From assembly GCF_023078375.1 (NCBI RefSeq), contig NZ_CP095554.1:3836501-3900500 (forward strand): a stretch of 64,000 bases of DNA, read 5' to 3'. The notes below the pieces were generated by a model. It had not been told where the DNA came from and did no database searches. It saw nothing but the letters and a program-made list of their open reading frames with translations. Shown here in pieces: positions 61,553-64,000 of this stretch (positions within the stretch are counted from its first letter, which is position 1; every line of letters begins with the position of its first letter). A program made the translations under genes and the position numbers. Origin of the DNA: Roseomonas gilardii subsp. gilardii (GTDB taxonomy: Bacteria; Pseudomonadota; Alphaproteobacteria; Acetobacterales; Acetobacteraceae).

Positions 61553-61727
61553 CGGATCGGCCTCTATAGTAGGTTTATCGTAGGTTTTGACCTACGAGGC
61601 GCAGCCGGGTTCAGACCCGCCTGGGCTGCACCGCCCCGTGCAGGTCGGATCAGCCTCTATAGTAGGCTTGTCGTAGGTTTTGACCTACGGGGCGCAGTCA
61701 GGTTCAGCCTCGTCCGGCTTGCACCAC
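61553..61727. repeat. Two ~80-bp direct repeats, 93-bp period, each with a hairpin
   Basis: Copies begin at 61553 and 61646. The core CCTCTATAGTAGGYTTRTCG plus GTAGGTTTTGACCTACG differs at only a few bases. Each copy holds the hairpin CGTAGGT-TTTG-ACCTACG (61579-61596 and 61672-61689). In the frame that reads both copies in step most differences change amino acids, so selection on a protein is unlikely. Confidence 0.85.
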
Positions 61728-61836: not shown

Positions 61837-62232
61837 ATGGCCCTGGAAATTCCCCACAACGCCCTGATCCTGGTAGCCGACGGCGCCAAGGCGCTGCTGC
61901 TCCGCAACACCGGGCGCAATGGCGAGATCACCCTGCGCGAGGAAAGCCGCCTTTCCCCCGATTTCGGCGCACAGGGCCCGTCCGGCGCCCGCCCCGAGGA
62001 CCAGTCGCCCAAGGAGACCGGCGAGGCCACCTTCGCCAAGCAGATCGCCCAGACGCTCCAGGCCATGAAGCTCCAGAACGGCTTCGAAGCCCTGGTGGTG
62101 GTGGCCGACCCGCAGACCCTGGGGCAGCTTCGCGAGGCGATGCACAAGGCGGTCGAGTCGAGCGTCGTGAAGTCGCTGGACAAGGACCTGACCGGCCACA
62201 CGCCGGAGGAGATCGCCGCGGCGCTGCGCTGA
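61837..62232 (+). CDS. Host-attachment-family protein
   Basis: 131 residues: HNALILVADGAKALLLRN at the N terminus, the acidic insert GARPEDQSPKETGEATFAK, then FEALVVVADPQTLGQLREAM and KDLTGHTPEEIAAAL. This is the Host_attach family (first described as needed for Agrobacterium attachment), whose biochemistry is unsettled. GGAGG lies upstream of the ATG. Confidence 0.82.
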   Translation: MALEIPHNALILVADGAKALLLRNTGRNGEITLREESRLSPDFGAQGPSGARPEDQSPKETGEATFAKQIAQTLQAMKLQNGFEALVVVADPQTLGQLREAMHKAVESSVVKSLDKDLTGHTPEEIAAALR

Positions 62233-62279: not shown

Positions 62280-62738
62280 TCAGCCGCCCAGCTTCGCCTT
62301 CACGATCGGGCCGACCTTGGCCATGTCCAGCGTGGCCGCGTGTTTCGCCTTCAGCGCCGCCATCACCTTGCCCATCTCCTTGATGGAGCCGGCCCCGGTC
62401 TCGGCGATCGCCGCCTCCACCGCCGCCGTGGTCGCGGCCTCATCCATCTGCTGCGGCAGGAAGCCCTCGATCACCGCGATCTCGGCCTCCTCCTTCGCCG
62501 CCAGTTCGGGACGGTTGCCCTGGCGGTACATCTCCACGCTCTCGCGCCGGCTCTTCGCCATGCCGCGCAGCATGGCGACGATCTGCTCGTCCGGCACCTT
62601 GTCCACGCCCGAGGGGCGCGCGGCGATGTCGGTGTCCTTCAGCTTCGCCATGATCATGCGCAGCGTGGAGGTGCGGGCGGCATCGCCCGCGCGCATGGAG
62701 GCCTTGAGTTCCTCAGTGAATCGGCTGCGAAGGTCCAT
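62280..62738 (-). CDS. GatB/YqeY-domain protein
   Basis: 152 residues, a standalone version of the tail domain of GatB. MDLRSRFTEELKASMRAGDAARTSTLRMI opens it, followed by QGNRPELAAKEEAEIAVIEGFLPQQM and GKVMAALKAKH. A role in tRNA amidation is inferred from family only. The ATG at 62738 has GAAGGAGAGG upstream. In alphaproteobacteria this gene often precedes dnaG, as here. Confidence 0.9.
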   Translation of the reverse strand: MDLRSRFTEELKASMRAGDAARTSTLRMIMAKLKDTDIAARPSGVDKVPDEQIVAMLRGMAKSRRESVEMYRQGNRPELAAKEEAEIAVIEGFLPQQMDEAATTAAVEAAIAETGAGSIKEMGKVMAALKAKHAATLDMAKVGPIVKAKLGG

Positions 62739-62829
62739 CAGGCCCTCTCCTTCCTGTTCTGGCGTCATCCGGCCGGCCCCCGTGCCGGACGGGCGGAAAC
62801 TTCCCACCCGCTCGCCGGGAAAACGGTGT

Positions 62830-62846
62830 TGGGAAATTTCTTCCCA
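62830..62846. promoter_or_regulatory. Inverted repeat 1 upstream of carA
   Basis: TGGGAAATTTCTTCCCA: 6-bp arms and a 5-base centre. It has the same arms as the repeat at 62871, with centres 41 bp apart, about four helical turns. Confidence 0.75.
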
Positions 62847-62864: not shown

Positions 62865-62893
62865 TTGACTTGGGAAACCACTTCCCAGATAAC
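62865..62893 (+). promoter_or_regulatory. Predicted carA promoter
   Basis: TTGACT (62865-62870) and GATAAC (62888-62893) are separated by exactly 17 bases, the inverted repeat at 62871-62887. The expected start point is about 62900, the A of the ATG, so the mRNA would have no leader. Confidence 0.65.
62871..62887. promoter_or_regulatory. Inverted repeat 2 inside the carA promoter
   Basis: TGGGAAACCACTTCCCA: 6-bp arms identical to repeat 1. It fills the promoter spacer, so a bound protein would block RNA polymerase. Confidence 0.75.
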
Positions 62894-62899
62894 CCCGCC

Positions 62900-64000
62900 A
62901 TGCGTTCCGTGGAAGAGATCATCCGCCTCGCGGGCGGGGCGGAGGCCGTGGCCCAGCGCTGCGGCGTGGGCGGCGAGGCCGTCCGCAAGTGGCGCCAGGC
63001 CCGCGCCATCCCGCCCAAGCACTGGCCCGCCCTGATCGCCGCCACCGGCCTGTCCTTCGGGGACATGCCGGGCGCCTCCGTGGCCACCCCGGCCGATCCC
63101 GCCACGCCGCCCCCCTCCCCCGTCCTCGCGGAGCCCTCCATGCCCGAAGCCGCCGACACCCCGCCCGCCGGCGCGACCGCCTGCATTGTCCTGATGGACG
63201 GCACGGTCTTCTGGGGCCGAGGCTTCGGCGCCGCCGGGACCCGGGCGGGCGAGATCTGCTTCAACACCGGGCTGACGGGCTATCAGGAAACCCTGACCGA
63301 CCCCTCCTATGCCGGGCAGATCATCACCTTCACCTTCCCCCATATCGGGAATGTCGGCGCCAATGCCGAGGATGTGGAGACCATCACCCCCGCCGCCCTC
63401 GGCCTGATCACCAAGGCCGATGTCACCGAGCCCTCCAACTACCGCGCCCAGCGCCACCTGGACGACTGGCTGAAGAGCTTCGGCATCCCCGGCATCGCCG
63501 GGGTGGACACGCGCGCGCTGACCATCCGCATCCGTGACGGCGGCCCGCCCAACGGCGTCATCTGCCACGCGCCCGATGGCCGCTTCGACCTCGCCGCGCT
63601 GCGCGCCCAGGCCGCCGGCTGGCCGGGGCTGGAGGGCATGGACCTCGCGAAGGAGGTGTCCTGCCAGCAGTCCTACCGCTGGGAGGAAGGGCTCTGGCGC
63701 TGGAACCAGGGCTATGAGGCCAGCCCGGCGAAGCGCCACAAGGTCGTGGCCGTGGACTACGGCGCCAAGCGCAACATCCTGCGCTGCCTGGCCGATGCCG
63801 GCTGCGACGTCACCGTGGTCCCCGCCACCGCCACGGCGGAGGAGATCCTGCGCCACGGGCCGGACGGCGTCTTCCTCTCCAACGGCCCCGGCGACCCGGC
63901 GGCGACTGGCGAATACGCCGTGCCCGCCATCCGCGGCGTGCTGGAGAAGCAGGTCCCCGTCTTCGGCATCTGCCTCGGCCACCAGCTCCTCGCCCTGGCG
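62900..64000 (+). CDS. carA: Carbamoyl-phosphate synthase small subunit CarA with N-terminal HTH-like extension, 5' part
   Basis: Glutaminase subunit supplying ammonia for arginine and pyrimidine synthesis. From ATG 62900, residues 1-55 (GGAEAVAQRCGVGGEAVRKW, then IPPKHWPALIAATG) look like a Cro/YdaS helix-turn-helix. A Pro/Ala-rich linker of about 25 residues follows, then CarA proper from ACIVLMDGTVFWGRGFG. The nucleophile Cys is residue 358 (GICLGHQ). An internal ATG at 63140 would give CarA alone, with Cys278, close to the E. coli position. The window ends before the catalytic His/Glu pair. Confidence 0.9.
   Translation, partial: MRSVEEIIRLAGGAEAVAQRCGVGGEAVRKWRQARAIPPKHWPALIAATGLSFGDMPGASVATPADPATPPPSPVLAEPSMPEAADTPPAGATACIVLMDGTVFWGRGFGAAGTRAGEICFNTGLTGYQETLTDPSYAGQIITFTFPHIGNVGANAEDVETITPAALGLITKADVTEPSNYRAQRHLDDWLKSFGIPGIAGVDTRALTIRIRDGGPPNGVICHAPDGRFDLAALRAQAAGWPGLEGMDLAKEVSCQQSYRWEEGLWRWNQGYEASPAKRHKVVAVDYGAKRNILRCLADAGCDVTVVPATATAEEILRHGPDGVFLSNGPGDPAATGEYAVPAIRGVLEKQVPVFGICLGHQLLALA

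Follow-up and report, generated by a model that had tools for sequence, protein, structure and literature searches.

A Cro-like helix-turn-helix domain on CarA of Acetobacteraceae and operator-like palindromes in the carA promoter point to autogenous repression

CarA of the Acetobacteraceae is probably an autogenous repressor, that is, a trigger enzyme that would control its own synthesis. In Roseomonas gilardii the protein is fused at its N-terminus to a Cro/YdaS-like helix-turn-helix (HTH) domain, and operator-like palindromes are conserved in carA's own promoter. Because of this combination, self-control of carA transcription by a DNA-binding CarA, put forward in a preliminary description of this DNA, stands as the best reading; from it we infer binding to the palindromes and repression. 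Two of the features expected of a trigger enzyme were found, namely an enzyme bearing a DNA-binding domain (as judged from sequence and fold model) and operators in the control region of the target gene (as computed sites). With metabolite-responsive control of transcription as a predicted third feature, HTH-CarA would belong in kind with the trigger enzymes.

The CarA fusion and its HTH domain

In the list of open reading frames of the 64,000-nucleotide stretch of DNA that was analysed (the window), a frame starting at ATG 62900 remains open through CarA and past the window end. The features of this frame are as follows.

62900..64000, plus strand: carA long form (HTH-CarA), continuing beyond the window, 471 aa in the genome; from reading frame and domain scan
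62909..63049, plus strand: Cro-like HTH domain, residues 4-50 (NF046037); from profile match and fold model
62972..63001, plus strand: helix 25-34 (EAVRKWRQAR) in the recognition position; from fold model and conservation
63065..63148, plus strand: variable linker, residues 56-83, predicted to be disordered (pLDDT <50 for 56-83), sequence not conserved

The uninterrupted frame into CarA given in the preliminary description is borne out by the length of 471 aa in the genome, and so is the N-terminal extension of 80 residues, since Met 81 is encoded by ATG 63140. The core of the protein was assigned by the Pfam scan to CarA, the glutamine-hydrolysing small subunit of carbamoyl-phosphate synthase at the entry to arginine and pyrimidine synthesis (small-chain domain PF00988, 163.7 bits; glutaminase domain PF00117, 83.1 bits), and C358, H442 and E444, which we take to be active-site positions from their roles in E. 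coli CarA, are invariant among 27 CarA. As to the surroundings of the gene, an SDR-like dehydrogenase gene sits between carA and carB (L001, downstream of 2631; L102): it lies 3' of carA in the R. gilardii genome, and in R. mucosa (L102) carB starts after it.

The N-terminus of CarA is a member of NCBIfam NF046037 "carph-isopro", which matched residues 4-52 at 64.0 bits (cut-off 38). The small named domain on alphaproteobacterial CarA proteins to which the preliminary description referred hence exists. In Pfam, the 80-residue extension stayed below the cut-offs, with YdaS_toxin (PF15943) at 25.6 bits against 30 and P22_Cro (PF14549) at 20.8 bits against 30.2, and membership in either family was rejected. 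The fold model of the HTH (mean pLDDT 88.7) has helices at residues 4-10, 14-21, 25-34 and 39-49, and its top structural match is N15 Cro on operator DNA. Further matches include entries of HppE, MPnS and PhpD, enzymes that hold a Cro-like HTH and for which we know of no DNA-binding role. From a full-length CarA model, which was poor (mean pLDDT 66), only HTH and linker were considered. Among 42 sequences, twelve residues of the HTH stretch are invariant, including E26, A27, R29, K30, W31 and Q33 of helix 25-34. Profile match and Cro-like model confirm the HTH-like segment suspected earlier, and the model contains the helix in recognition position that the predicted fold was expected to show. 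Together they support a Cro/YdaS-like HTH that would bind DNA.

The domain is a constant part of CarA in this family. It was found in all 23 other family genomes, where it always shares a reading frame with CarA, and likewise in frame with the CarA core in 78 of 80 named relatives. In the other two (L115, L139) the frame reaches past the contig end. The frame is preserved across linkers of differing length. These 80 are the best of 351 relatives confirmed in the named-genome scan and hence lean to close relatives. Part of them are apparently the same strains as in the other family set (e.g. L102 and G004) and thirteen have one linker motif in common, so that counts over relatives are not independent events. 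Across the order, the domain was detected in 296 of 299 genomes, all Acetobacteraceae, a count of domains and not of fusions checked in each.

Palindromes and promoter elements upstream of carA

Two TGGGAA-N5-TTCCCA palindromes (62830-62846 and 62871-62887) lie just 5' of carA, embedded in the following elements.

62280..62738, minus strand: yqeY (GatB/YqeY-like), divergent neighbour of carA, an open reading frame that we presume from its sequence alone to be yqeY; homologues divergent in relatives
62790..62806, no strand: degenerate third site CGGGCGGAAACTTCCCA, 9/12 arm positions
62830..62846, no strand: distal operator candidate TGGGAAATTTCTTCCCA, from pattern search, kept in relatives
62865..62870, plus strand: -35-like TTGACT, abutting the proximal operator candidate
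62871..62887, no strand: proximal operator candidate TGGGAAACCACTTCCCA, equal to the whole 17-bp promoter spacer, kept in relatives
62888..62893, plus strand: -10-like GATAAC, from sequence reading and relatives

TTGACT, the 17-bp proximal palindrome and GATAAC are contiguous without a gap, and the ATG follows 6 nt further on. This arrangement is conserved. Among 27 distinct family genomes, R. gilardii included, at least one site with at least 9/12 arm positions occurs at the carA start in all 27 and at least two in 26, the single-site genome being L019. With at least 10/12 positions, at least one site is present in 80/80 named relatives and two in 77/80, and in 74 of these 77 the paired sites are 37-44 bp apart. 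The centre of the proximal palindrome is located 21-23 bp before the ATG in 78/80 relatives; TTG is found exactly 6 nt 5' of the palindrome in 66/80, and 6-8 nt separate the -10 hexamer from the ATG in 78/80, with a loose -10 rule satisfied in 63/80. Among Falsiroseomonas species and their relatives (L149, L152, L172, L173, L181), several have a degenerate proximal arm, CCGGAA. As an outside control, 30 carA loci were fetched from 75 matching genomes in other families of the class, and none had a site with at least 10/12 positions within 600 bp before the GYQE codons (for L185 and L193, within the 278 and 445 bp of upstream DNA available).

The exact palindrome is rare in the R. gilardii genome (4.6 Mb, 97.6% complete), with three copies and none of the reversed control; allowing up to one mismatch gave seven sites versus two. 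The third exact copy falls within a TraG-like frame whose neighbourhood has transposase and conjugation-like frames; we assign all three names from likeness of sequence. Of the four one-mismatch sites, one (L279) falls within another TraG-like frame and one (L277) within a long frame; the other two, L276 and L278, have no clear placement. A wider regulon in this genome was rejected, as no pyrimidine or arginine promoter was seen among the sites away from carA, with L276 and L278 unannotated. The exact palindrome was present in 158 of 249 family genomes, mostly once or twice each, and the reversed control in 16; this count is genome-wide, irrespective of position relative to carA. One member of the family, G371, has eleven exact copies where almost every other genome has one to three, representing either a repeat or a real regulon. 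The window also holds another palindrome, GTAGGTTTTGACCTAC, which occurs twice (61580-61595 and 61673-61688, 93 bp apart) with near-identical surroundings upstream of a small gene at 61837, and which may be a further pair of operators or else a dispersed repeat.

The palindromes might instead be operators of a separate transcription factor, with the HTH on CarA being structural or acting elsewhere. Binding by the HTH itself is, after all, read from sequence and model, and HppE, MPnS and PhpD show that enzymes may hold a Cro-like HTH of no DNA-binding role known to us. We nevertheless consider this unlikely, as helix 25-34 is almost invariant, other domain-bearing enzymes have other palindromes that are alike where the recognition helices are alike (see below), and where the domain is missing the sites are missing too. 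The latter point comes from the outside carA loci above and from the three of 299 genomes of the order without a domain match (G721, G505, G330). In G721, carA is cut by the contig end and is uninformative. G505, G330 and G414, a genus mate of G330, have a CarA that lacks the domain, and they lack the paired sites (a single 10/12 match lies over 800 bp 5' of GYQE in G330, and G505 has four matches of 9/12), while in G331 and G415, of the genus of G505, the domain is present along with two exact sites per genome. Domain and paired sites are absent together.

Less likely still is binding of HTH-CarA to the sites with an outcome other than repression, be it activation or remodelling of the promoter or a role mainly at the divergent yqeY. 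Paired sites 37-44 bp apart would fit looping or wrapping, and yqeY homologues are divergent upstream of carA in 68/80 relatives. However, the proximal site occupies a 17-bp spacer, which is already the optimal promoter spacer length, so that a MerR-type activator would be unneeded. In addition, the sites persist in 11 loci that have no yqeY within 1.6 kb of upstream DNA, all of them MAGs of a single related group (L130, a twelfth locus, has 144 bp upstream only and is uninformative). For the same reason we think it unlikely that the palindromes are part of a divergent yqeY promoter.

Two starts and a proposed mode of self-control

Repression of carA by HTH-CarA itself is predicted from the position of the proximal site together with the known action of Cro and of YdaS, which has been described to bind paired sites over promoters (PMC8630535). 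The Cro-like HTH, held on a flexible linker, would bind as dimers to both palindromes, whose spacing is about four helical turns. Since the proximal one takes up the whole interval from -35 to -10, its occupation would exclude RNA polymerase and turn carA off. No Shine-Dalgarno (SD) sequence was seen before ATG 62900, and with the -10-like element 6 nt away the carA transcript should, as predicted from the sequence, start at or near this ATG, the long HTH-CarA then being made by leaderless initiation. Leaderless transcripts are known but uncommon in Gluconobacter oxydans, a member of the Acetobacteraceae (62/1344; PMC5756330), and the main text of that study does not name carA. A second start lies in the linker.

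63130..63133, plus strand: internal SD GGAG, 6 nt before the internal ATG
63140..63142, plus strand: internal start codon, Met 81, of a predicted CarA without HTH

This internal start is conserved at the nucleotide level. An SD (GGAG, GAGG or AGGA) precedes a linker Met in 67 of 76 loci, whereas shuffling synonymous codons 200 times gave 19.9 on average and never more than 29, and elsewhere in these carA genes it precedes 8 of 308 internal Met codons. The gap from GGAG to ATG is 6 nt in 51 cases and 9 nt in 16. The internal SD is missing in L107, L149, L152, L155, L158, L172, L173, L175 and L181; in Falsiroseomonas species and relatives among these (L149, L152, L172, L173, L181) perhaps only the long form is made. 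It is thus likely that one mRNA would give rise to both HTH-CarA and plain CarA. The preliminary description had taken proteomic detection of only the form from 63140 as refuting the fusion, which looks too simple where the sequence predicts both forms. That only the short form is made and the upstream frame is a high-GC accident is scarcely credible: the internal SD and ATG are good, no SD was seen before ATG 62900 and long chance frames are common in this DNA, but the stretch is a recognised protein domain (NF046037) with its twelve invariant residues in 42 sequences and a frame held across linkers of varied length.

In the autogenous scheme, the amount and state of HTH-CarA would report on carbamoyl-phosphate synthase. 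As for the signal, our guess, a tentative one, is that oligomeric state is sensed: assembly with CarB may alter the number of HTH domains presented together and hence the grip on the paired operators. The E. coli enzyme is described as heterodimeric in the presence of UMP and tetrameric when ornithine and ATP are present (PMC6245113), and two sites about four turns apart would suit several HTH domains offered at once by one assembly.

The same domain on other proteins and its relation to known systems

NF046037 was found in 83 of 289 genomes of the Alphaproteobacteria, above the cut-off in 52. Sixty-seven carrier proteins, a subset of those listed, were scanned with Pfam and NCBIfam (25 of 29 Pfam families listed); this set excludes L097 and L098, in which our HMM found no domain, and L059, R. 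gilardii's own carA. The partners were mitofilin (20), HisZ (8), ArgB (4), CarA (3), CoaBC (2), NAD(P)H-hydrate enzyme (2), crotonyl-CoA carboxylase/reductase (2) and, once each, pyruvate dehydrogenase E1 alpha, SerA, PyrB and a NarJ-like protein; the other 22 of 67 belonged to none of the named partner families. GlmU is an additional carrier (L026). The commonest partner is therefore a mitofilin-like membrane protein (L032-L050 and others), and in L039, L040, L050 and L073 the frame also contains an upstream sequence that we take to be uroporphyrinogen-III-synthase-like. In the one-contig genome G051, three equal-scoring matches lie near both ends (G051:C1:1546, 4140, 4597476), being either repeated genes or overlapping contig ends.

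Motifs for other carriers were proposed by an unbiased paired-palindrome search and then tested on more loci, with the suggesting loci included (3/24 for HisZ, 2/30 for CoaBC). For HisZ, the domain matched in 24 of 28 genomes of one family, HTH and HisZ core were in one frame in 24/24 loci, and TTCATA-N3-TATGAA (up to two mismatches, within 170 bp upstream) occurred in 21/24 loci versus 1.48 expected from shuffles. For CoaBC, the domain matched in 36 of 41 genomes, HTH and core were in one frame in all 30 fetched loci, and TTCACA-N4-TGTGAA was found upstream in 16/30 versus 0.22 expected. Cross-motif controls gave zero: the HisZ motif was absent from the CoaBC set and vice versa, and the CarA motif from both. 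ArgB, for which 4/4 genomes gave a match, had sites at -51 and -17 in three of these and at -51 in the fourth, for a motif picked after its sites were seen. Recognition helices and palindrome arms pair up: EAVRKW of CarA and DAVKKW of GlmU go with GGGAA or AGGAA, SAVSNYR of HisZ with TTCAT, SALSNYR of CoaBC with TTCAC, and SVYRWTY of ArgB and NVHRWTY of PyrB with TTACT or TTGCG, the GlmU and PyrB palindromes being by-eye readings of one locus each. The CoaBC motif was missing in 14/30 loci, and the paired-palindrome search gave no convincing operator pair for the mitofilin-type carriers, the largest group. Therefore, the domain is not always self-regulating, or the search missed sites.

On balance we lean towards a modular control system in Alphaproteobacteria, in which a portable Cro-like domain fronts about a dozen unrelated proteins, mostly metabolic enzymes (CarA, HisZ, ArgB, PyrB, CoaBC, SerA, GlmU, NAD(P)H-hydrate enzyme and others). 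Many of these would become self-repressors, with the operator following the recognition helix, and in CarA the leaderless long and the SD-led short start may determine how much of the enzyme is sensing and how much non-sensing.

The library entry for NF046037, the same domain as the CarA HTH, gives a name without a function, and the term carph-isopro returned no papers in the literature library searched. The modelled fold resembles those of N15 Cro, P22 Cro, Xfaso 1 Cro and YdaS; unlike these phage Cro and YdaS proteins, which are free small regulators, the CarA HTH is fused to a housekeeping enzyme and scores under the Pfam cut-offs. PutA, BirA, NadR, PepA and PyrH, the five trigger enzymes listed for E. 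coli in a published overview, likewise are metabolic enzymes controlling transcription, PutA binding the control region of its own gene (PMC8249747). HTH-CarA differs in the enzyme (CarA), in its Cro-like DNA-binding part, in an operator that equals the promoter spacer and in the predicted HTH-less form from an internal start. At the E. coli carAB promoter P1, PepA and PyrH are likewise metabolic enzymes taking part in control, but they are other enzymes, with direct PyrH binding unseen in that account (PMC6245113), whereas here the carA product itself bears the domain. In the literature searched, which left most subscription papers outside its scope, we found no description of a Cro-like fusion on CarA, of the nested start or of domain reuse with separate palindromes.

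Self-controlling enzymes such as PutA, BirA and NadR are known singly. Here, one small domain seems to convert many enzymes into self-repressors, seemingly across whole bacterial families and with operators that can be read from the sequence. For the Cro fold, this provides naturally matched recognition helices and operators, and carbamoyl-phosphate synthesis in Acetobacteraceae gains a candidate regulator that can be tested by simple assays.
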